A stretch of DNA of 62,380 bases from Clostridia bacterium (GTDB taxonomy: Bacteria; Bacillota; Clostridia; Christensenellales; Aristaeellaceae), in assembly GCA_017473345.1 (NCBI GenBank), contig JAFULL010000117.1, forward strand, positions 1 through 62,380, given 5' to 3'. The notes under the pieces are model-generated. The model was given only the letters and a program-made list of their open reading frames with translations. It ran no database searches and was not told where the DNA came from. Both the position numbers and the translations under genes were made by a program. Positions 28,681 through 39,341 of this stretch are shown here, in pieces; the first letter of the stretch is position 1; each line of letters starts with the position of its first letter.

Positions 28681-30108
28681 TTACTTCTGCTGCCACAGGG
28701 CAAGCGCGTCTGCAATGGTCTTTTCATAGGCCTCATGGCCATACTTGTCCACTTCGCTCTTGTCCTTCGGACCATGGGTCAGGCATCCGGCGCCGCCGAT
28801 GCAGCCGCCTGTGCAGGCCATACCCTCAACGAAGTTTTCCTTCAGCAGGTTTTTCTGCTTTTTGAGCAGCGCTACGCGGCATTCCTCAATACCATCGCAA
28901 ACCACAGGGTTGACGATGAAGTCGATTTTCTGTTCCTTCAGCGCCTGCGCCACGGAGTCGCTCAAGCCGCCGGAGCGGGCAAAAATGCGGCCAAAGTAGC
29001 TGGCATTGTCCAGCACGCCCACTTCCAGTGTCTGCAGATCCAAATCACGGCTATCGATCCACGCCTGCACTTCTTCAAAGGTCAGTGCACAGTCCACATG
29101 TTCCTTCACGCATTCACGCTGAGCCTCGCCCTTCTTGGCAGTGCAGGGTCCAATAAACACAACCTTGGCCGTCGGGTCAGTTTGCTTGATATAGCGGCCC
29201 ATCTCAGCCATCGGCGAAAGGTTGTGGCTGACGTGCTCCCTGATGGAGGGGAAACTCTTTTCAATATAGGACACAAAGGCCGGACAACAGCTGGAAGTCA
29301 GGAAGCCCTTTTCAGCCAGTTCCTGTGCCTCTTTGTATGCCACCATATCTGCGCCAAGGGCCGCTTCGATCACCGTAAAGAAGCCCAGATGCTTGAGCGC
29401 TGTGATCACCTGCCCCACTTTCACATGCACAAACTGGCTGGAGATGGAGGGCGCAACGACCGCATACACACGGTATTTCTGGTTGTTTTCGCTTTCGCGA
29501 ATCAGGCGGATGGCGTCCAGCAAAAAGCTCTTGTCCTGAATGGCGCCAAAGGGACACTGATACACGCACGCGCCGCAGGCAATGCACTTGCTGTCGTCAA
29601 TATGCGCCACATGGTTTTCGCCCTGGGTGATAGCCTTTACCTTGCAGGCACGCTCGCAGGGGCGCACATGGTTCTGAATGGCGCTGTAAGGACAGACGGA
29701 CGCGCACTTGCCGCAGTTGATGCACTTGTCAGGATCAATCGTTGCGTGATGGTTGGCATCAAAGGTAATAGCCCCGCGGGGACATACACTGGCACAGCGG
29801 TGTGCGATACAGCCGCGGCAGTCAGGGCCCACGCGATAACCGCTGACAGGGCATTCGTCACAGGCAATATCAATAACCTCAATCACATTGGGTTTTTCCT
29901 TATTGCCGCCCATGGCTATCTTCACACGCTCAGCCACAATGGCGCGCTCCTTGTAGATGCAGCAGCGCAGCTCGCTCTTGGGGCCGGGCGAGATCAGCTT
30001 GGGTATATCCAGATAGCAGTCCTGCAGCGTACCTTCATACGCATGGCGGGACACTTCCCGAAGCACCTTGTATTTGAGCTTCTGTACATAGGTATCAAAC
30101 AATTGCAT
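28681..30108 (-). CDS. [FeFe] hydrogenase, group B-type
   Basis: This 475-residue protein has a cysteine-rich N-terminus with several [4Fe-4S] sites, including CDECPVSGYRVGPDCRGC (83-100), CINCGKCASVCP (129-140) and CIACGACVYQCP (175-186). The H-cluster domain follows. Its three cysteine motifs are TSSCCPAF (Cys274/275), FIGPCTAKKGE (Cys322) and EGMACTGGCIGGAG (Cys432/436). All H-cluster ligands are present, so catalysis of H2 formation or uptake with ferredoxin is plausible. The CCPAF and GPCTAKK variants match what I recall of group B enzymes, not the standard group A. ATG 30108 follows GGGAGG. It is the last gene of the operon. Maturases HydE, HydF and HydG are not in the window. Confidence 0.88.
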   Translation of the reverse strand: MQLFDTYVQKLKYKVLREVSRHAYEGTLQDCYLDIPKLISPGPKSELRCCIYKERAIVAERVKIAMGGNKEKPNVIEVIDIACDECPVSGYRVGPDCRGCIAHRCASVCPRGAITFDANHHATIDPDKCINCGKCASVCPYSAIQNHVRPCERACKVKAITQGENHVAHIDDSKCIACGACVYQCPFGAIQDKSFLLDAIRLIRESENNQKYRVYAVVAPSISSQFVHVKVGQVITALKHLGFFTVIEAALGADMVAYKEAQELAEKGFLTSSCCPAFVSYIEKSFPSIREHVSHNLSPMAEMGRYIKQTDPTAKVVFIGPCTAKKGEAQRECVKEHVDCALTFEEVQAWIDSRDLDLQTLEVGVLDNASYFGRIFARSGGLSDSVAQALKEQKIDFIVNPVVCDGIEECRVALLKKQKNLLKENFVEGMACTGGCIGGAGCLTHGPKDKSEVDKYGHEAYEKTIADALALWQQK

Positions 30109-30127
30109 ATGATTCCTCCCGGATGAA

Positions 30128-31300
30128 TCAGAAATAGGAAAGACGGATGTGTTTACCCATCTTCTCCAGGCAGTCCGCCAGATTGGTGATGAGCTGCTGC
30201 TTGATAGCAAAGTTGATGGGCAGATTGGGGTTCTGGTGTGCCGGGTTGATAGCGCGGCCCACAAAGAAGTTCACGTCCGTAGCGTTTTCAAACAGTTCTC
30301 TGGCAATCAGACTAGCGCCGTCCTTCTGGGTGATCCACACGGGCACAAGTTTTGCCTGGTCAAGGAAGTCCTCAGCATATGTAAGAACCTTGGCGAGCGT
30401 AATTACGCCTTCAGTAGTCAGGTCAACACCCTTGATACGGCTGATGGGCGGAACCTCAGGATCGGGATAATCCAGTTCAGCAATGATAGGTTCATGCAGA
30501 TAACGTGATACCACGTTGCTGGTGGTACCGCCGCAGACGATCTTTGTACCGTTTTTGCCAAAGAACAGGTTCATCATGCGGATATCGTCTTCCTTATTTT
30601 CGGGCGGGCCCACAACAAGGTTGACCGTGTGACGGTTGCGCACACGTGCGACGGCAATGGTCGTATCATCGCCGGGCTTACCGTCATAGAGGCGGTTGCA
30701 CTCGTCGATGATCAGACCGGCTGTTGACTTGGCGCTGTTTTCCGGCAGGTAATTGGCCATCACATAGTCGGCAATGGAATCGCGCGTCCAGCCAAAGTTC
30801 ATGGTCATACCTACACCGGCCCATTCAGCGCCATCGCTCATAGCGATGAACAGGTCGTCCACCTCAATGGGGAAAACGCTTTCCCAGATGGTTTTTCCGC
30901 CAATCACACGGGTGGTGCGGGGGTAGTTGAACACCTCGCCCCTGCGCAGCACGATCGTGGCCGGGTTGTCAAACTGAATGATGTGCGCCGTTTCGTTATT
31001 CTTGATCTGCAGAATGGTAAACGTTGAATAAGCCACCTGACGCACGCTGCAAACCGGCAGCGTGCTTGCGATGGTCGCCACGCACTCCTCCAGCGGAATG
31101 CCGCCGGAGATCATGGTGCACAGAATTTTGGATGTGAGCGTGGAAAGAATATTGGCCTTTACGCCGCTGCCCAGTCCGTCCGCCAAAACAAGCGTAAGGT
31201 CATCATCACCGCCGCCGAAAACTTCCACCTTATCGCCGCATAGCGTCTCGCCCACATGATTGAGACTGATCCAGCCTGTTTCAATCCACAGGTCATTCAT
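30128..31300 (-). CDS. SpoIIE-family protein phosphatase with an unknown C-terminal domain
   Basis: This 390-residue protein has a PP2C/SpoIIE phosphatase core in its first 230 residues. Likely metal-binding acidic motifs are LADGLGSG near 40, MSDGAEWAG near 158 and GKPGDDTTIA near 208. A C-terminal domain of about 150 residues (after VNLVVGPPENKEDD) has no identity I know, although it recurs in my memory with sensory hydrogenases. It has no membrane segment. Its ATG at 31300 overlaps the stop region of the PAS-hydrogenase gene by 8 nt, so translation is coupled. It probably dephosphorylates a serine/threonine target in response to H2 or redox state sensed by that neighbour. Confidence 0.83.
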   Translation of the reverse strand: MNDLWIETGWISLNHVGETLCGDKVEVFGGGDDDLTLVLADGLGSGVKANILSTLTSKILCTMISGGIPLEECVATIASTLPVCSVRQVAYSTFTILQIKNNETAHIIQFDNPATIVLRRGEVFNYPRTTRVIGGKTIWESVFPIEVDDLFIAMSDGAEWAGVGMTMNFGWTRDSIADYVMANYLPENSAKSTAGLIIDECNRLYDGKPGDDTTIAVARVRNRHTVNLVVGPPENKEDDIRMMNLFFGKNGTKIVCGGTTSNVVSRYLHEPIIAELDYPDPEVPPISRIKGVDLTTEGVITLAKVLTYAEDFLDQAKLVPVWITQKDGASLIARELFENATDVNFFVGRAINPAHQNPNLPINFAIKQQLITNLADCLEKMGKHIRLSYF

Positions 31301-32969
31301 GGGCCATCGCATCCTTCAGTTTTGTCAGCGCGATCTGGGTTTCGGCGGTGGTTTCACCCAGAAGCGAGGCGATCTCCTGCACAATACGCATCTGCTTGTC
31401 GATCACCTTGTTTGTGATTTCAACCGTCTGCTGTTTGAGTTCAGCGCCCTGCAGGCGGAGTTTTTCATGTTCGGTCACGTCACGAATCAGCGTGATGATC
31501 ACATGATACTGACGATCGTAAAGAATGGTCTCATCCACGTACAGGCCATAATCAGACAGATAATGTTTGCGGCTCCGGGTGTGCAGCGCAGCATTGACGA
31601 TCATCTGGTAATCGCGTGGATTCAGAATACGTACCACATGCTCGTGCAGAATGTCGCCGGCATCCTTAAGCTTGAACATCTTAACAGCAGAAGGATTAAT
31701 CTGCTGCACCACCAGATCCTCATCCATAACGATGATGGCGGTGGGCGTGTTGTGAATGATGGTATCGGAGAAGCTCTCTGCTTTTTCCTTCAGGAAGGGC
31801 AGACACATCTCGATCTTGGCCTTGCCTTCGAGGATGGCAATGGCCTTATCACGGCAGGTGGGATAGCCGCAGGATCCGCAGTTGAGTTCCTTTTCAGGGC
31901 TGGTCTTGCCCATTTTGTAAAGCATATCGCGGATCGCGTCGCCGCCAAACTGCATTCTGTGGCCGCCGTCAAAGGAATAGGTAGTGCGGATATCAGGCTT
32001 GTTTTCGATCTGATAGGGCGTTTCGCCAGTTCCGGAAAAAGCATCCACGCGCATAGCGCCCTTCAGACGGCGCTCAACATGATCGCGAATGCAGGGGCCG
32101 TTGACGCAGCTGCCTTCGCAGGCGCTCATTTCAATAAACACCTTGCCGAATTCATCGTTTTCGATTTCCTTGAACACAGCACGGCAGTTGTCGATACCGT
32201 CGATGGCGATGCGGCGGTAACCCTTCACCTTGGCTGTTGCCTTGAGCACGCCGCCGGTAGCCGGATAGAGACGCGCCAAAGCACCCTCGCTGGCAGGATC
32301 CACATGCTCATAAGGCAGCTCAATCCCTTCTTCAGCAAACCAGTCCGCCAGTTCATCAAAGGTGAGTGCCACATCCGTATAGGAACCCTCGTCACTCTCC
32401 TGCTTTTTGGCAATGCAGGGGCCGATGAAAACCGTAAAAGCGTCAGGTAGCTGTTCTTTGATCAGCTTGCAGTGCGCTTCCATGGGCGTAAGCACCTTGG
32501 CCAGATAGGGCAGCATGGTGGGATGATATTTGCGAATGAGCATGTTGATGGAAGGACAGCAGCTGGAAATAAGCACATGCAGCTTGCCTTCCTCCATGAT
32601 GCGGGCGTATTCTTCGCTGACCATCTGGGCGCCAATAGCCGTCTCCTGTATTTCAGCAAAGCCCAGCTGTTTGAGTGCATTCGCGATCACATCCAGCGAA
32701 CGGATGCGGAAATTGGCGATAAACGACGGGGCCAGACTGCACACCACGCGTCTGCCTGCAGCAATCGCTGCCTTGACGCGCAGCACATCATTCCTGACCT
32801 GCTTGGCCTTTTGCGGACAGGTGACATAGCAGCGTCCACAAAGGATGCATTCATTGTGTACAATTTCAGCCGTATCGTGGGCAAAAGTGATGGCCTTTAC
32901 CGAGCAGTCACGAATACATTTGTAACAGTCCGTACAGTTGTTTTTATTCAAATTCAGTATTTCTTGCAT
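31293..32969 (-). CDS. Sensory-type [FeFe] hydrogenase (group C, HydS-like) with PAS domain
   Basis: This 558-residue protein has a two-cluster ferredoxin domain (CTDCYKCIRDC, 12-22; CILCGRCYVTC, 41-51) and an H-cluster-type domain with SSCCPS (Cys137/138), FIGPCIAKKQE (Cys185) and EMSACEGSCVNGPC. A further Fe-S motif, ELNCGSCGYPTCRDKA, follows near 350. A PAS domain lies at about 385-500 (IHNTPTAIIVMDEDLVVQQINPSA). It ends without a kinase or cyclase output domain. Group C hydrogenases are thought to sense H2. Here the output is probably the overlapping SpoIIE-type phosphatase. GGGAGG lies before ATG 32969. Confidence 0.87.
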   Translation of the reverse strand: MQEILNLNKNNCTDCYKCIRDCSVKAITFAHDTAEIVHNECILCGRCYVTCPQKAKQVRNDVLRVKAAIAAGRRVVCSLAPSFIANFRIRSLDVIANALKQLGFAEIQETAIGAQMVSEEYARIMEEGKLHVLISSCCPSINMLIRKYHPTMLPYLAKVLTPMEAHCKLIKEQLPDAFTVFIGPCIAKKQESDEGSYTDVALTFDELADWFAEEGIELPYEHVDPASEGALARLYPATGGVLKATAKVKGYRRIAIDGIDNCRAVFKEIENDEFGKVFIEMSACEGSCVNGPCIRDHVERRLKGAMRVDAFSGTGETPYQIENKPDIRTTYSFDGGHRMQFGGDAIRDMLYKMGKTSPEKELNCGSCGYPTCRDKAIAILEGKAKIEMCLPFLKEKAESFSDTIIHNTPTAIIVMDEDLVVQQINPSAVKMFKLKDAGDILHEHVVRILNPRDYQMIVNAALHTRSRKHYLSDYGLYVDETILYDRQYHVIITLIRDVTEHEKLRLQGAELKQQTVEITNKVIDKQMRIVQEIASLLGETTAETQIALTKLKDAMAHE

Positions 32970-33031
32970 GAAAAATTTCCTCCCGGAATCAGTGCAGCTG
33001 GGCTGACAAAGACACCATCATTCCAAAAGAA

Positions 33032-33274
33032 TCAAAGACGCGGCAGAACGTCCTTTTCAAAGAATGCGCGGGTAGTCTCCGGCGTAAGAGAAAACGCTTC
33101 GCCATCTACTGTTACGCAAACACCATTCTGACAGTTGCCCATGCAGAACTGACCAGCCAGCTCGATCTTGTCGCCGAGCTGATTTTCGGCCACCAGTTTC
33201 TGCAGTTCTCCAACAATTTGACGCGACCCCTTCAAGTGGCAGCTGGAACCAATACAAATGGTAATTTTCATCAT
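33032..33274 (-). CDS. Small thioredoxin-like [2Fe-2S] ferredoxin
   Basis: This 80-residue protein has the thioredoxin-like [2Fe-2S] fold seen in NuoE/HydC-type subunits. Four ligand cysteines are likely in ITICIGSSCHLKG and GQFCMGNCQNGVC. It is the first gene of the hydrogenase operon, 62 bp before the PAS-hydrogenase gene, and may pass electrons between the hydrogenases or to the sensor. Three consecutive ATG codons (33277, 33274, 33271) follow AGGAG; 33274 gives the best 6-bp spacing. Confidence 0.82.
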   Translation of the reverse strand: MMKITICIGSSCHLKGSRQIVGELQKLVAENQLGDKIELAGQFCMGNCQNGVCVTVDGEAFSLTPETTRAFFEKDVLPRL

Positions 33275-33425
33275 CATATTCTCCTTCCGTGATCTTGCGT
33301 ACCGAGCATCATTCACAGTCAACCGTTTATGCAGGGATCACTGCCGATTAGCCTTGTCACCCCACGGTCTGACTGATGCCGCAGTTCATTATGTCCATTG
33401 TCATATCAAACAACGGACAGCTGTC

Positions 33426-33604: not shown

Positions 33605-33633
33605 TTGATTTTTATATTTAATTACTTTATAAT
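33605..33633 (+). promoter_or_regulatory. Sigma-A promoter of the Dlt-like operon
   Basis: TTGATT (33605-33610) and a perfect TATAAT (33628-33633) are separated by 17 bp in an AT-rich stretch, 39 bp before the adenylation gene start. Confidence 0.75.
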
Positions 33634-33672
33634 ATAAACTGTAATTTTTTGCAGAAAGATGAGCTGGCAAAA

Positions 33673-35175
33673 ATGAACCAAACCGTATTGAAATGGCTTG
33701 AGCAGACTGTCAAAACACATACAGACAAAGTGATGCTGACCGACGAAAACAGCAGCCTCACCTTTGGTGAATTTGACCGCATCTCCAAAGCGATTGGTAC
33801 CTGCCTGGCAGGAAAAGTTGCGCCTGCTTCTCCTGTAGTAGTGATGAGCGGCCGCCATGTGATCACGCCTGCGGCCTTTTTGGGCGTAGTGCGCGCAGGC
33901 TGTTTTTATGCGCCAATGGACGCTACCATGCCAGTGTCGCGCCTGAATCAGATTCTGAAAATCATCAAGAGCAAGTACATGCTTGTCGACCGTGCCTTTG
34001 CGAATGTCGCTGACCAGCTGGACTTTGACGGCGAGCGCCTGTATATTGACGAAATAGCCGAAACGCCCATTAACGAAACACTGCTTGCGCGCGCGGCAGA
34101 ACAACTGTTGCCCACCTCTCCCCTGTATGTCATCTTCACTTCGGGTTCAACCGGTGTGCCCAAGGGCGTTATCACGTCTCATCAGTCGCTGATGCACTAC
34201 ATCGACGCTGTTGCCGGCGTGCTGGACATACAGGAAAACGACGTGCTCGGCAGCCAGTCGCCGTTTGATTATATCGCTGCTGTCCGCGATATCTATCTGC
34301 CGCTGAAAACCGGCGCTTCGACCGTCGTGGTTCCCAAAAACGAGTTTTCCATGCCGGTTCAGCTGTTTGAAACGCTCAACCGCCATAAGGTCACAACCCT
34401 GTGCTGGAGCGTTGCAGGCATTGAGCTGCCTGCCAAGCTGGGCGGCTTCGACTGCGGTAAGCCTGAACACCTCAAAAAAGTCTGCTTCTCCGGCTCAGTG
34501 ATGGCCTGCAAATATCTGAAGATCTGGCAGGAGCATTTGCCGGATGTGCTGTTTGTCAACCAGTACGGCCCGACTGAAGCCACTGCATCCTGCACCTACT
34601 ATGTGGTCAGTGAAAAGGTGGACGACAGCACCGTGCTGCCCATCGGCAAGCCTTATGAAAACTACGGCATTCTGCTGCTGAACGAAGATGACACCCCTAC
34701 CGCGCCAGGCGAGATCGGTGAGATCTGCGTCAAAGGCCCCGTGCTGGCGCTTGGTTATTACGGCGATGCAGAGCGCACGGCTCAGGCTTTCATCCAGAAC
34801 CCGCTCAACCCAAACTATCGGGAGCTGATCTATAAAACCGGCGATCTGGGACGTTGGATGGAAGATGGCAATCTGGCATTCCACGGGCGTAAAGACCGGC
34901 AGATCAAACATATGGGCCACCGCATCGAACTGGGCGAGCTGGAAAAAACAGCTGCCGAGGTCGAAGGCGTATCACAATGCTGCGCCATGTACAACAAGGA
35001 CAAGGAACTTTTGTACCTGTTCTACACCGGCGATGCCACCTCTAAGGAAATCGTACTGCATTTCAGGGCCGTGCTTCCGGCATTCATGGTGCCGCGCAAG
35101 CTGATCCGTCTGGATGAACTTCCCAGACTGCCCAATGGCAAACTGGATATGCAGACTATGAAAAATCTATTTTAA
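33673..35175 (+). CDS. DltA-like amino acid adenylation enzyme
   Basis: This 500-residue stand-alone adenylation enzyme activates an amino acid with ATP and loads it on a carrier protein. Core motifs are VIFTSGSTGVPKGV (A3), NQYGPTEATASCTYY (A5), YKTGDLGRWMEDG (A7), GRKDRQIKHMGHRIELGELE (A8) and LPNGKLDMQTM (A10, with the catalytic lysine). FDYIAAVRDIY at the A4 position resembles the DltA pattern, with the aspartate that usually holds the amino group. Overall length and order fit D-alanine-carrier ligase, but the substrate cannot be read with confidence. ATG 33673 is preferred over an upstream TTG, with AAAGATGAG as a weak ribosome site. The carrier gene follows 15 bp downstream. Confidence 0.86.
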   Translation: MNQTVLKWLEQTVKTHTDKVMLTDENSSLTFGEFDRISKAIGTCLAGKVAPASPVVVMSGRHVITPAAFLGVVRAGCFYAPMDATMPVSRLNQILKIIKSKYMLVDRAFANVADQLDFDGERLYIDEIAETPINETLLARAAEQLLPTSPLYVIFTSGSTGVPKGVITSHQSLMHYIDAVAGVLDIQENDVLGSQSPFDYIAAVRDIYLPLKTGASTVVVPKNEFSMPVQLFETLNRHKVTTLCWSVAGIELPAKLGGFDCGKPEHLKKVCFSGSVMACKYLKIWQEHLPDVLFVNQYGPTEATASCTYYVVSEKVDDSTVLPIGKPYENYGILLLNEDDTPTAPGEIGEICVKGPVLALGYYGDAERTAQAFIQNPLNPNYRELIYKTGDLGRWMEDGNLAFHGRKDRQIKHMGHRIELGELEKTAAEVEGVSQCCAMYNKDKELLYLFYTGDATSKEIVLHFRAVLPAFMVPRKLIRLDELPRLPNGKLDMQTMKNLF

Positions 35176-35190
35176 AGGCAGGAGACAAAC

Positions 35191-35418
35191 ATGGAAGAAC
35201 TGATGAAGATCCTTGAAGAACTGCGCCCCGATGTGGACTTTGAAAACGAAACCGGCCTGATTGCCAACGGCATTCTGGACTCCTTTGATATTGTATCTCT
35301 GGTCAATGAGCTGTCTGACGCTTTCGATGTAGAAATCAAGCCCAGCGACCTGATTCCCGACAACTTCAACTCTGCCTCCGCCATTCTGGCGCTGGTCGAA
35401 CGTCTGCAGGATGAATAA
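35191..35418 (+). CDS. Acyl/aminoacyl carrier protein, DltC-like
   Basis: This 75-residue acidic protein has the carrier-protein fold. Ser31 in GILDSFDIVSL is the expected 4'-phosphopantetheine site. It should hold the amino acid activated by the upstream enzyme as a thioester. GGCAGGAGA precedes ATG 35191. Its stop codon lies in the start region of the PLP enzyme gene, so the carrier and PLP enzyme are probably translationally coupled. That supports a carrier-bound substrate for the PLP enzyme. Confidence 0.9.
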   Translation: MEELMKILEELRPDVDFENETGLIANGILDSFDIVSLVNELSDAFDVEIKPSDLIPDNFNSASAILALVERLQDE

Positions 35419-35419
35419 A

Positions 35420-36598
35420 ATGAGTCATATCAGTCTGGCCGAGCTTGGTGCTCGCCTTCGTACTCCGGCCTATGTTTTTGACAGCAGCCGCTTTGCAGAG
35501 CGGGCGGCTGCCGTCAGGGACGCATTTGGCCCAAAAACCGGGATTTGCTTTTCCATCAAAGCAAATCCCTTCCTGTTGTGCTGTCTACCGGATGCATTTG
35601 ACAAAATCGAGGTATGCAGCCCCGGCGAACTGACCATCTGTGAGAAAACCGGCGCGGATATGTCCAGCGTTATTTTCTCCGGTGTCAACAAAACCTTCAA
35701 AGACGTTGAGCGTGCGATGGATGATGGTGTAGGCGTTTTCACCGCTGAAAGCTGGCTGCATGTGCAGCTGATTAACGAGAGCGCGCTTAAGCGCGATCTT
35801 TGTGTGCCGGTTCTGGTACGTCTGACGGCAGGCAGCCAGTTCGGCATGGACGAAGCCGACGTGCTTGATTTGATTGCCCGTCGGGATGAATACAAGGGGA
35901 TTCGCATTGTAGGTCTGCATTTCTTTTCCGGCACGCAGAAACGCAAGCCTGCGCTGATCGAAAAGGAGCTGGATCACGTCATGGCCTTTGTCGAGCGTGT
36001 TGCCAGCGAATATCAGTTCCGGCTGGAACGGCTTGAGTACGGCACCGGTCTGGCTGTGGACTATTTTGACGCCAACGCCAATTCGCTCGAAATGGCCCGT
36101 TTGGAGGCTGTTTCAGCAAAAATTCGTGAAGTTGCTGAAAAAATCGAGCTGACCGTGGAAATGGGGCGCTTTTTTGCTGCGCCCTGCGGCCATTACTTCA
36201 CCCGCGTGATGGACGTCAAGACCAATCAGGGCGTCAACTATGCCATTGTGGATGGCGGCTTGAACCAGCTGAAATACGACGGTCAGATTCAGGGCATGCA
36301 GATTCCGCAAATCGTGCATCTCAAAGCCACTGAAGACACTTCCGATGCGCTTCCTTGGACGCTTTGCGGCAGCCTTTGCACCACCGCTGACGTGCTTGCG
36401 CGCAATGTACCTTTCAGCAATCTGCAGATTGGCGATCTGCTGGTTTTTGAACGCACGGGCGCTTATTCTGTTATGGAGGGCATGGCTGTCTTCCTCAGCC
36501 GTGAGATGCCTGAGATCCATCTGCTGTCGGAAGAAAAGGGCCTGATGCTGCTTCGCGGAATGATCGACACCGACCAGTTCAATACTCCCATGGCCTAA
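35420..36598 (+). CDS. Fold-type III PLP-dependent decarboxylase (LysA/BtrK-like)
   Basis: This 392-residue enzyme has an alanine-racemase-type barrel and a C-terminal beta domain. The PLP lysine is Lys47 in CFSIKANP. HFFSGTQ near 174, a glycine-rich phosphate-binding EYGTGL near 197, EMGRFFAAPCGHY near 248 and the catalytic cysteine region LCGSLCTTADVL near 312 match diaminopimelate-decarboxylase relatives. Within that group, linkage to an adenylation enzyme and carrier recalls BtrK, which decarboxylates glutamyl-carrier in butirosin synthesis. Standard dlt operons lack such a gene. ATG 35420 has AGGA about 8 bp upstream; ATG 35411 overlaps the carrier stop and is less likely. Substrate is unknown. 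Confidence 0.85.
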   Translation: MSHISLAELGARLRTPAYVFDSSRFAERAAAVRDAFGPKTGICFSIKANPFLLCCLPDAFDKIEVCSPGELTICEKTGADMSSVIFSGVNKTFKDVERAMDDGVGVFTAESWLHVQLINESALKRDLCVPVLVRLTAGSQFGMDEADVLDLIARRDEYKGIRIVGLHFFSGTQKRKPALIEKELDHVMAFVERVASEYQFRLERLEYGTGLAVDYFDANANSLEMARLEAVSAKIREVAEKIELTVEMGRFFAAPCGHYFTRVMDVKTNQGVNYAIVDGGLNQLKYDGQIQGMQIPQIVHLKATEDTSDALPWTLCGSLCTTADVLARNVPFSNLQIGDLLVFERTGAYSVMEGMAVFLSREMPEIHLLSEEKGLMLLRGMIDTDQFNTPMA

Positions 36599-36617
36599 TG
36601 GTTGGAGGAATGTTTTC

Positions 36618-38240
36618 TTGAGTTACACATCGTTGAACTTTGCACTGTTTGTGTGTATCACGGCGCTGGTGTATTTTCTGTTCCCTGTCAAAAAGTATCA
36701 GTGGACAGTGCTTCTTGCCGCAAGCTATGTGTTCTATCTGTTTGTAGGCTACAAGCATGCCTTTTTCCTGCTGTTTACCACCGTTTCGGTTTATGCTACA
36801 GCGCTGGTGATCGATCGCATTGCTGTGCGCGGACAGGAACAGCTCAAAGCACACAAGGAAGACTGGGACAAGGCTCAAAAAAAGGCCTTCCGTACCCAAA
36901 TCAAGCAGAAAAAGCGCTCTGTTATGCTGTTGGCGGTAATTGTCAACCTGGCGATTCTCTGCTTCCTGAAGTATTATAACTTCCTCGCCGGCAGTCTTAA
37001 CGATCTGCTGGGTGCAGGCGGCATCCGCTTTTCCGCTCCTACGCTCAGGCTTCTTCTGCCGCTGGGCATTTCTTTCTACACCTTTCAGGCGGTCGGCTAT
37101 GTGCTGGACGTGTATAATGAAAAAGTACAGCCCGAGCGCAATGTGTTCAAGTTTGCCCTGTTTGTGTCCTTCTTCCCGCAGATCGTGCAGGGCCCCATCA
37201 GCTTCTACAGCCAGCTGGCTCATCAACTGTACGAGCCGCACCGTTTTGAGTATACCCGTGCAAAGCATGGCTGCGAACTGATTTTGTGGGGTTTGTTCAA
37301 GAAGCTTGTTATTGCTGACCGTGCGCTGATTGCCATCAACGCCGTGCTGGATCAGTATATCAATTTTGGCGGTACAACGCTGACCTTTACGATCCTGTTG
37401 TATGCCCTTCAGCTCTACACGGACTTTTCCGGCGGCATTGATATTTCCCGCGGCGTTGCACAGATCTTGGGCATCGACATGGTACAGAACTTCAAACGAC
37501 CCTATTTTGCAACCGACATCAACGATTACTGGCGCAGGTGGCACATCTCTCTGGGCGCATGGATGAAGGAATACGTCTTCTATCCCCTGGCCCTTTCCAA
37601 GCGTTTTGCGGCGCTTAGCAAGAAAATCAAAGCCAGCCGTTTCGGCTCGACTCCTGCCGGAAACCATGTGGCCAGAGTGCTTCCCACCAGCATTGCCTCG
37701 CTGATCGTGTTCCTCCTTGTGGGTGCCTGGCATGGCGCCAACTGGAAGTACATTGGTTTTGGCCTGTGGAACGGCGGTGTGATTATGGTCTCCACCCTGA
37801 TGGAGCCGCTTTTTGTGAAGCTGGCTGAAAAACTGCGTATCAACACAAAAACGATGTTCTTCCGTCTGTTCCAGATGCTGCGTACCTTCCTGATCGTTCT
37901 GGTTGGATATGTATTTGACGTTGCTCCTACATTAACAGACGCACTGCGCACTTTGTGGCGGATGTTGGTTCGCCAGAACTTTGCTGCTGCCGGTGCTGAA
38001 ATTGCTGGTCTTGGTCTGACTGGAAAAGACTACTGGCTGCTTGGAATCTGCACGCTGTTCCTGCTTGTGGTCAGCATTCTGCAGGAGCGCAGCGCTGATG
38101 TTTCTCTTCGCGAAAAGCTGGATCAAAAGCCCTTCATCCTCCGGTATGCATTGCTGTTTGTGGGTATTCTTGCAATCGTGATCTTCGGCATTTACGGGCC
38201 TGGCTATAATCCGGCTGACTTTGTTTACATGCAGTTCTAA
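36618..38240 (+). CDS. MBOAT family O-acyltransferase, DltB-like
   Basis: This 540-residue polytopic membrane protein belongs to the MBOAT family (DltB/AlgI/PatA). NDYWRRWHISLGAWMKEYVFYPL at about 297-319 and the WHGANWKYIGFGLWNG block with the catalytic histidine near 377 are family marks. It should pass an acyl or aminoacyl group from the cytoplasmic carrier to an acceptor outside. The start codon is TTG 36618, set by GGAGG (36604-36608) 9 bp upstream; an ATG at 36610 is in another frame. It starts 19 bp after the PLP enzyme and is followed 17 bp later by an SGNH-like gene, as dltB is by dltD-type genes. Confidence 0.88.
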   Translation: MSYTSLNFALFVCITALVYFLFPVKKYQWTVLLAASYVFYLFVGYKHAFFLLFTTVSVYATALVIDRIAVRGQEQLKAHKEDWDKAQKKAFRTQIKQKKRSVMLLAVIVNLAILCFLKYYNFLAGSLNDLLGAGGIRFSAPTLRLLLPLGISFYTFQAVGYVLDVYNEKVQPERNVFKFALFVSFFPQIVQGPISFYSQLAHQLYEPHRFEYTRAKHGCELILWGLFKKLVIADRALIAINAVLDQYINFGGTTLTFTILLYALQLYTDFSGGIDISRGVAQILGIDMVQNFKRPYFATDINDYWRRWHISLGAWMKEYVFYPLALSKRFAALSKKIKASRFGSTPAGNHVARVLPTSIASLIVFLLVGAWHGANWKYIGFGLWNGGVIMVSTLMEPLFVKLAEKLRINTKTMFFRLFQMLRTFLIVLVGYVFDVAPTLTDALRTLWRMLVRQNFAAAGAEIAGLGLTGKDYWLLGICTLFLLVVSILQERSADVSLREKLDQKPFILRYALLFVGILAIVIFGIYGPGYNPADFVYMQF

Positions 38241-38257
38241 GAAGGGCAGGATTCCAG

Positions 38258-39298
38258 ATGAAAAAGAAGCTCTTCCTTCTTGTCAGGCGATGTCTGTTTC
38301 TGTGTTTGCTGACAGCTGCCCTTGTGTATATCAGCAGCGTTTTTGTTACCCATGCCAGTACGGACTGGACTGCCTCAAGTACCTACGGCGACTTTTATCA
38401 GCTTGAGCCCAATACGGTCGACGTGTTATTCTTTGGTTCAAGCCATGTAGCCCGCGCATTCGCGCCTCAGGAGCTTTACAACGAGCACGGCCTGACCAGT
38501 TATAATCTGGCAGGTGATGAGCAGAGCATCCAACTCAGTTATTTCTGGCTGGAAGAAGCTCTGCGTACGCAGTCGCCTCAGGTCGTTGTGCTGGACAGCT
38601 GCTTCCTGTTTGACTATCATCCTGGTCAGCCAATGAGCGTTGGCGAAGGAAGCTATCGAAAAGCGCTGGATCCCATGCAGATGTCTCCTGTAAAAATGCG
38701 TGCCATTCATGAAATATGCCGCATTGATCCGGAACAAAGCGAACTTACCTACTATCTGCCATTCATCCGCTATCATTCCGGCTGGCAGGAGCTGGATGCC
38801 TCCTGTTTCCGGCTTCACCACAAACGTGGTTTGATGGGTTACACGCCAAACTTTCTGGTATGGAACAGTACTGGCGATGAACCTTTTCTGGCTGAAGAAA
38901 GCGACGAAGCCGAAATGCTTCCTCAGATGAAAGAGTATCTTGACCGCATCCGGGAACTGTGCAGCAAACAGGGCATCACCCTGCTTCTGGTTAAAACCCC
39001 CAGTCCCTGGCAGACACTGGAACAGCACAATGCCGTTTCGGCCTATGCCGAAGAACACGGGCTTGACTACATCGATTTTAACGAGGATGAAGCCTACTAC
39101 GGTGCTGATTACTGGTATGCAACTGACAGCAGCGATATCGAGCATGCCAATCACTGGGGTGCGGTAAAGCTAACGTATTATCTGGGCGATTATCTGATCA
39201 CGGAATATGGCTTGGAGCCTCATGAAGATGAGCAGTGGGATGAAAGCAACGAATTTTATCAGCTGCAGATCGAAGAAGGCGAAGTTTCTGCCGCCTGA
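38258..39298 (+). CDS. Membrane-anchored SGNH-like protein, DltD-like role
   Basis: This 346-residue protein has one N-terminal membrane helix (about 7-30) and an outside domain. VDVLFFGSSHVARAF near 54-68 fits the first block of SGNH proteins, with a serine in GSSH. HANHWGAVKLTYYLG near 302-316 fits the last block, although the usual Asp-x-x-His is Asn-His here. DltD has the same topology and fold and helps transfer D-alanine to teichoic acid. Direct sequence similarity to DltD is weak. It closes the five-gene operon, ahead of a terminator, and probably completes transfer to a surface polymer. Confidence 0.75.
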   Translation: MKKKLFLLVRRCLFLCLLTAALVYISSVFVTHASTDWTASSTYGDFYQLEPNTVDVLFFGSSHVARAFAPQELYNEHGLTSYNLAGDEQSIQLSYFWLEEALRTQSPQVVVLDSCFLFDYHPGQPMSVGEGSYRKALDPMQMSPVKMRAIHEICRIDPEQSELTYYLPFIRYHSGWQELDASCFRLHHKRGLMGYTPNFLVWNSTGDEPFLAEESDEAEMLPQMKEYLDRIRELCSKQGITLLLVKTPSPWQTLEQHNAVSAYAEEHGLDYIDFNEDEAYYGADYWYATDSSDIEHANHWGAVKLTYYLGDYLITEYGLEPHEDEQWDESNEFYQLQIEEGEVSAA

Positions 39299-39306
39299 GT
39301 ACATCC

Positions 39307-39341
39307 AAAAGCCCGATCCTGTATGGATCAGGCTTTTGTTA
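39307..39341 (+). terminator. Terminator of the Dlt-like operon
   Basis: A stem of 7 + 5 bp with one mismatch (39307-39319 with 39325-39337) has a TGTAT loop and ends in GGCTTTTGTT. It may also serve the convergent minus-strand gene ending at 39343. Confidence 0.75.

Follow-up and report, generated by a model that had tools for sequence, protein, structure and literature searches.

The window analysed here is a stretch of 62,380 nucleotides from a Clostridia bacterium of the Aristaeellaceae (assembly GCA_017473345.1, contig JAFULL010000117.1). On its + strand it carries a single operon, at positions 33605-39337, of five genes in the order A, C, PLP, B and D (Table 1). They are predicted to code for an adenylation enzyme, a carrier protein, a pyridoxal phosphate (PLP) decarboxylase, a membrane-bound O-acyltransferase (MBOAT) and an SGNH-like protein, respectively. 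An earlier note, made from the sequence of the window alone, had described the operon as a relative of the D-alanylation (dlt) operon to which a decarboxylase gene has been added. All five genes are present in the order that it stated. They are closely packed, with 15 nucleotides between A and C, 19 between PLP and B, and 17 between B and D. The stop codon of C (35416-35418) lies one base ahead of the PLP start codon if translation begins at ATG 35420 and is overlapped by the PLP gene if it begins at ATG 35411, in agreement with the near contact of the two genes that the note had pointed out.

Table 1. Features of the operon, in window coordinates.
Feature	Position	Strand	Remarks
Sigma-70-like promoter, TTGATT-17-TATAAT	33605..33633	+	consensus match only, 10/12 positions
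A, stand-alone amino-acid adenylation enzyme, 500 amino acids	33673..35175	+	ATG start; a start at TTG 33649 gives 508 amino acids
A, pocket core DYIAAVR	34267..34287	+	GrsA 233 Asp, 235 Ile (not Asp), 239 Arg; placed by phmmer on DltA 3fcc without gaps
C, DltC-like carrier protein, 75 amino acids	35191..35418	+	exceeds the PP-binding cut-off; closest solved structures are DltC
C, phosphopantetheine Ser31	35281..35283	+	present in 96/96 classed carriers with a letter at the site
PLP, fold-III decarboxylase, 395 amino acids	35411..36598	+	ATG 35411, alternative ATG 35420
PLP, Schiff-base Lys50	35558..35560	+	54/54; role taken from the family
PLP, catalytic-loop Cys323 in CGSLCT	36377..36379	+	Cys in 54/54; next residue Thr, where LysA has Glu
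B, DltB-like MBOAT, 540 amino acids	36618..38240	+	TTG start; MBOAT above cut-off; solved relatives only DltB
B, C-terminal acyl-shuttle motif FVYMQF (FxYxxF)	38220..38237	+	motif from PMC12148441
D, SGNH-like protein, 346 amino acids, one N-terminal hydrophobic segment	38258..39298	+	motif-based (Ser62, His296)
Intrinsic terminator, hairpin and T-run	39307..39337	+	read from the sequence; core 39315-39329 found computationally

Relatives of the operon in other genomes fall into two types that bear a PLP gene. Class I, to which the window belongs, comprises the A-C-PLP operons. Class II is a sister type made up of the other PLP-bearing operons, mostly A-PLP-C-B-D. The PLP protein of the window has what defines a fold-III PLP decarboxylase, namely the two Pfam domains Orn_Arg_deC_N and Orn_DAP_Arg_deC, both above cut-off, together with the catalytic Lys, His, Glu-x-Gly-Arg, Cys and Tyr. 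Lys50, Glu250, Gly252-Arg253, Asp281, Cys323 and Tyr352 are kept in all 54 PLP sequences of the two classes. His170 is found in 31/31 class I sequences; the 23 of class II have Gln (17), His (5) or Glu (1) at this position. Among solved structures, the best relatives are two BtrK entries (101 bits), followed by a diaminopimelate decarboxylase (94 bits), which bears out the description of a linked, BtrK-like decarboxylase given in the note. The residue that follows the catalytic Cys is Thr or Ser in 54/54 sequences, and Thr in BtrK. The signatures of LysA are lacking, as none of the 54 sequences has CE in the catalytic loop and class I reads KYDGQ in the RPxMY region. CE and RPxMY are motifs of diaminopimelate decarboxylases. 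Both occur, as SLCENND and RPAMY, in a second, LysA-like protein of the window genome (contig C62, locus L046). With this separate protein in the genome, a PLP enzyme acting only on free diaminopimelate, one of the outcomes that the note had set against its own proposal, seems unlikely. BtrK converts BtrI-S-glutamate to BtrI-S-GABA, where GABA is gamma-aminobutyric acid (PMC7857480). The nearness of the PLP enzyme to BtrK in sequence and the linkage of the genes are in keeping with a putative action on a carrier-bound amino acid. A 12-bp inverted repeat with a 6-base loop (35540-35569) is found inside the PLP gene, beside and over the codons around Lys50.

The A protein matches AMP-binding at 203.5 bits and passes the TIGR01733 model (333.4 vs a cut-off of 317.4 bits). 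The two DltA models remain far under their cut-offs, at 262.1 of 476 and 239.7 of 559.85 bits. The A segment QSPFDYIAAVRDIY was aligned by phmmer, free of gaps, to QAPFSFDLSVMDIY of DltA. According to PMC11253843, D-alanine is contacted in Bacillus cereus DltA by Asp197, Leu198, Cys269 and Val301. In the window A, these four positions (235, 236, 301 and 330 in GrsA numbering) read Ile, Ala, Ser and Ala, and position 239 is Arg. The pocket thus does not look made for D-alanine, and loading of D-alanine only, a further outcome named in the note, is unlikely on these grounds. Loss of Asp235 would fit a substrate whose activated carboxyl has an amine on neither its alpha nor its beta carbon, for example gamma-activated glutamate. 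Arg239 would fit a free alpha-carboxylate and would repel a terminal amine. Lys239 occurs in a non-ribosomal peptide synthetase code for glutamate.

The ten-letter pocket code was compared over 102 A genes: 31 of class I, 23 of class II and a third group of 48 for which no same-strand PLP gene lies closer than 4.5 kb. Loci L019, L031, L035 and L042-L045, where no A gene was found, are outside this count. The code IAR(C/G)xSQASK is found in 31/31 class I genes and DVKxxS(L/V)CNK in 23/23 class II genes. Neither of them occurs in the 48 genes of the third group, 32 of which read DAKCAGLGMK, although a few of the 48 (for example L100, L110 and L140) are close to the end of a contig or lack C, B or D in their vicinity, so that a more distant PLP gene is possible there. 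The class II pocket, with Asp235, Val236 and Ser301, resembles those for beta-amino acids. In PMC11253843, a review from whose description (not from direct sequence comparison) the VinN pocket was taken, the beta-amine of the VinN substrate is held by the Asp235 equivalent and larger residues occupy positions 236 and 301; in engineered beta-Phe TycA, position 236 is always Val. The VinN type as such, marked by an Asp235 equivalent that holds the amine, a bulky residue at 236, Ser at 301 and a shortened loop, is found in neither class: class I has Ile235, Ala236 and Ser301, class II has Asp235, Val236 and Ser301, and no shortened loop is visible by eye in either.

The C, B and D proteins point to surface acylation. 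The nearest PDB chains of C are DltC, though its NCBIfam DltC score is below cut-off (39 of 68 bits). Likewise, the only PDB matches of B are DltB, and its TIGR04091 score is 144.8 bits vs a cut-off of 375. The MBOAT His of WHG is present in 87/87 classed sequences that have a letter at the site. The B protein ends with FxYxxF, described in PMC12148441 as the C-terminal motif by which PatA-type MBOATs and DltX shuttle acyl groups. This motif is terminal in 26/29 class I MBOATs, the three misses being cut by contig ends or broken (26/26 of those uncut), and in 35/42 MBOATs from operons without PLP. In class II, the strict motif is found in 7/22 and the Tyr is kept in the 15 others. The hexapeptide also occurs elsewhere in 27/96 MBOATs, so that its position, not its presence, counts as evidence. 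With gaps of at most 19 nucleotides there is no room for a DltX gene in the operon, and none is present there, the remaining genome not having been searched for one. In D, Ser62 and His296 are invariant in 19/19 sequences. D matches no family at cut-off, and its profile gave nothing but weak, scattered matches against PDB and Pfam; the term SGNH-like is therefore based on motifs, and the presumed fold on this Ser and His and the single hydrophobic segment. The DltD family (PF04914) was found in 0/10 operon-bearing genomes, among them the window's own, which is 65% complete. Thus, of the Dlt roles assigned in the note, a surface-acylation operon with C and B nearest to DltC and DltB still stands, whereas A lacks the DltA pocket for D-alanine and D falls outside the Pfam DltD family. 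The D protein is only 20-27% identical to its 18 counterparts, compared with 71-72% for A and PLP and their nearest relatives. D may track the acceptor polymer. At L020, L024 and L142, two MBOAT-D pairs lie near a single A/C/PLP set, which would fit a carrier shared between two acceptors.

The five-gene operon is real and conserved, and the recurrence of A-C-PLP is not due to chance. A scan of named genomes recruited by the PLP gene gave 42 loci. The order A-C-PLP is found in 30 of them, 27 of which have B in the same stretch; five others have A-PLP-C. The remaining seven are L031 and L019 (see below), L035 and L043, where the contig begins inside the operon, and L042, L044 and L045, which hold PLP homologues at 26-28% identity without the operon. 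The class I hosts include Ruminococcus bromii YE282, Ruminococcus sp. zg-924, metagenome-assembled genomes named Mogibacterium and other Clostridia; class II includes Adlercreutzia muris. Conserved separation of the PLP gene from the others, against which the note had warned, is not seen. PLP stays beside A and C across the gene orders A-C-PLP, A-PLP-C and PLP-C-A. In a converse sweep recruited by A, 391 genomes of the class were covered and an A match (E up to 1e-70) was found in 80. Among the 60 neighbourhoods examined, PLP is beside A in 13, all of them (13/13) with the class II code, and 47 are without PLP. In the family of R. bromii, the PLP gene (E up to 1e-60) is present in 19/250 genomes, with an A match in 19/19; motifs at 12 of the 19 loci assign five to class I and seven to class II. 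Recruitment by A in this family yielded five A genes at 56-69% identity, 5/5 with PLP within about 310 bp, in genomes two of which were already in the PLP scan. The pairwise identities of A and PLP correlate (r 0.94 over 465 pairs in class I, 0.88 over 253 pairs in class II), as expected from joint inheritance. In a quick, unrooted maximum-likelihood tree of A genes, branch support by the Shimodaira-Hasegawa-like approximate likelihood ratio test is 100 for class I, 99 for class II and 95 for the two together.

We propose, at a probability of about 0.62, that the operon makes an omega-amino acyl group by decarboxylation on the carrier and then puts this group on an extracytoplasmic polymer. 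The A enzyme would activate the side-chain carboxyl of a dicarboxylic amino acid by adenylation, with glutamate and its gamma-carboxyl as the likeliest case, and load the acid on the phosphopantetheine arm of C. With the acid still bound to C, the PLP enzyme would then remove its free alpha-carboxyl; the most likely product is GABA-S-C. B would take the group over from C on the Tyr of the shuttle motif at its own C-terminus, and D would accept it on its Ser and esterify a surface polymer. Given the general scheme, it is about an even bet that the product is GABA. The features that suggest this scheme are read from the sequence: the linkage of the genes, a pocket unlike that for D-alanine, the catalytic residues of a decarboxylase, the MBOAT His and shuttle Tyr, and the SGNH-like Ser and His. 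From them we infer the substrate, the on-carrier timing and the acceptor polymer.

There is precedent for such chemistry. In the pathway described in PMC11284099, VinO decarboxylates the 3-methylaspartate that VinN has loaded on VinL, and loading must come before decarboxylation. AfcQ, according to PMC12186527, activates aspartate by its side-chain carboxyl and does not activate beta-alanine. The point made in the note that attachment has to be through the far carboxyl of the acid is supported. The butirosin analogy drawn there holds insofar as BtrK offers a precedent for on-carrier decarboxylation, yet VinN/VinL/VinO is closer than BtrJ/BtrI/BtrK.

Several observations weigh against this proposal. 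LysA-type and BtrK-type sequences score nearly equal against the PLP protein, and the LysA-like protein elsewhere in the genome does not reach the LysA cut-off of NCBIfam either (263.4 vs 297.9 bits). A basic residue at position 239 is common in A genes without PLP too (DAKCAGLGMK in 32/48, DARCAVLGIK in 2/48), so that Arg239 alone is no proof of on-carrier decarboxylation; the group as a whole may originally have used an acidic amino acid. Loss of Asp235 is also reported, in PMC11253843, for the L-Phe enzyme McyG and for hydroxy-acid enzymes. Since VinN keeps the Asp235 equivalent and class I has Ile, class I is not a copy of VinN. The linkage, too, is imperfect: 3/31 class I stretches have A-C-PLP without B (L015, L025, L026), the other 28, window included, holding B; L031 is C-PLP-B-D with a different gene at the place expected for A; and L019 (7199-8074) is a lone, N-truncated PLP gene, likely a decayed copy. 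Because classes I and II form one group on the tree, the change of pocket and the presence of PLP are one evolutionary association, not an independent repetition. Moreover, 30/31 class I rows were recruited by the PLP gene, so that the presence of PLP is partly built in.

Among the alternatives, the one that fares best keeps the on-carrier scheme and changes the substrate. The class I A enzyme would activate the side-chain carboxyl of aspartate or 2-aminoadipate, to give beta-alanyl or 5-aminovaleryl groups instead of GABA. This is possible, though we consider it the less probable assignment. It follows the same logic with the same genes, and the size of the pocket is not reliably readable from the code. 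Against aspartate stands the Asp235 equivalent that holds the beta-amine in VinN, according to PMC11253843: class I is devoid of it, whereas in class II it is retained together with Val236 and Ser301.

It is improbable, to our mind, that the acceptor of the acyl group is a small molecule or a lipid and not a wall polymer. The surroundings of the operon lend this idea some weight, as no shared polymer gene was seen beside it. The sizes of the flanking genes differ, and the 10 flanking proteins scanned at 5 loci agree only between two near relatives. Furthermore, no match to CDP-glycerol glycerophosphotransferase was found in the 65% complete window genome; R. bromii YE282, Ruminococcus zg-924 and A. 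muris have at least one each. At L026 (5170-14994), the A-C-PLP trio has no MBOAT and D neighbours. Genes for two ATP-grasp proteins of the sugar-transfer type, a GT2 glycosyltransferase and a MatE protein come after it, which points to a polysaccharide at that locus. An MBOAT with a shuttle motif and an SGNH partner are, according to PMC12148441, machinery for envelope polymers, and this argues for the polymer as acceptor.

About as improbable, or slightly more so, is that the PLP enzyme decarboxylates the free amino acid (glutamate to GABA, aspartate to beta-alanine) and that A then activates the free omega-amino acid, with the same product at the surface. Most fold-III decarboxylases work on free amino acids, and Ile235 would suit an acid without an alpha-amine. 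However, Arg239 (31/31 in class I) or Lys239 (23/23 in class II) would face the ammonium of such a product. Moreover, the decarboxylated acid is not recognised by VinN (PMC11284099) and beta-alanine is not activated by AfcQ (PMC12186527).

Finally, an ordinary dlt operon with a passenger LysA paralogue making lysine is very unlikely. In its favour, the solved structures closest to C and B are DltC and DltB, A matches DltA models below cut-off, and LysA (TIGR01048) is the top NCBIfam match of the PLP protein, also below cut-off (176.3 of 297.9 bits). Against it, the D197, L198, C269 and V301 contacts are replaced in A, the motifs expected of LysA are found in a separate LysA-like protein, the PLP gene stays next to A and C in class I and class II alike, and none of the 10 operon-bearing genomes gave a DltD-family match.

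Comparison with known systems places the proposed on-carrier pathway between envelope modification and natural-product synthesis. With the Dlt pathway (DltA, DltC, DltB, DltX, DltD) it shares a stand-alone adenylation enzyme, a small carrier, a carrier-fed MBOAT and an SGNH-like partner, all in one operon. It differs by the absence of the D-alanine pocket, the added PLP decarboxylase, a D protein outside Pfam DltD, and FxYxxF fused to the MBOAT with no DltX gene in the operon. The VinN-VinL-VinO set of vicenistatin synthesis (also FlvN/FlvO), likened here by published descriptions, has an adenylation enzyme, a lone carrier and a PLP decarboxylase as well, with far-carboxyl loading followed by on-carrier decarboxylation, but it feeds a polyketide synthase and not an MBOAT. 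In butirosin synthesis, BtrK is the best solved match of the PLP protein and shares the Thr after the catalytic Cys; the product of BtrI-BtrK, however, goes to an aminoglycoside. BtrJ is an ATP-grasp ligase, another class of loading enzyme. PatA/PatB and other MBOAT-SGNH acetylation systems have the C-terminal FxYxxF and the SGNH partner, but the acyl donor of PatA is acetyl-CoA, not an aminoacyl carrier. The same two enzyme classes, adenylating ligase and decarboxylase, occur in the pair that NCBIfam names exosortase-A-associated; the window proteins score far below its models (182.7 vs 592.35 for TIGR03098, 171.8 vs 478.45 for TIGR03099). MBOAT/SGNH pathways other than Dlt have no similar carrier protein, according to the Discussion of PMC12148441. 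The operons described here, with and without PLP, combine a carrier with the fused motif and look like exceptions to that statement.

More tentatively, these operons of gut Clostridia and Eggerthellaceae may form one family whose members aminoacylate the surface and, in contrast to Dlt, use acidic amino acids as their starting material. The PLP-less form (mostly DAKCAGLGMK) would attach the acid itself, class II would turn beta-activated aspartate into beta-alanyl, and class I, that of the window, gamma-activated glutamate into GABA; a carrier-fed MBOAT with its own shuttle tail would export the group. The 47 PLP-less A genes of the converse sweep (L082-L141) are mostly in Dlt-like A-C-B-D operons, and DAKCAGLGMK is not a D-alanine code. 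Such operons possibly make surface esters of acidic amino acids.

D-alanylation tunes surface charge and host contact in Gram-positive bacteria. If our proposal is true, a parallel route adds a longer primary-amine group, and gut commensals such as R. bromii would display esters of GABA or beta-alanine, a surface decoration unlike the textbook one. It would also mean that a trick of natural-product synthesis, on-carrier decarboxylation, has been joined to envelope modification. In the literature covered, which leaves out most subscription papers and preprints, no report was found among the matches listed of a dlt-type operon with a PLP decarboxylase, of a Dlt-like system with other acids, or of GABA or beta-alanine on wall polymers; nor, within the same coverage, did the literature on the exosortase-associated pair yield a report of such an operon.

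The sigma-70-like sites upstream and elsewhere are weak evidence, 11 being found in the region vs 5.7 expected from shuffles. A hydrogenase-type cluster lies ahead of the operon on the minus strand (28681-33322) and is also present in genomes of the same genus. The operon itself is patchy. None of 16 genomes of the window's genus has a PLP match at E 1e-20, and at the level of the order a strong match is found in 6/297, own genome included. Contamination was considered as a cause of this patchiness and rejected: 10/15 same-genus genomes hold a match, 73-92% identical, to the hydrogenase gene adjoining the operon, and the contig is native. Among six sibling stretches, four hold the four-gene hydrogenase cluster without the operon and the other two hold one or two of its genes. 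As neither the operon nor the window genes on its far side were found beside the hydrogenase cluster of the same genus, the operon is at a break of synteny. Its patchy occurrence suggests that it may move between genomes.

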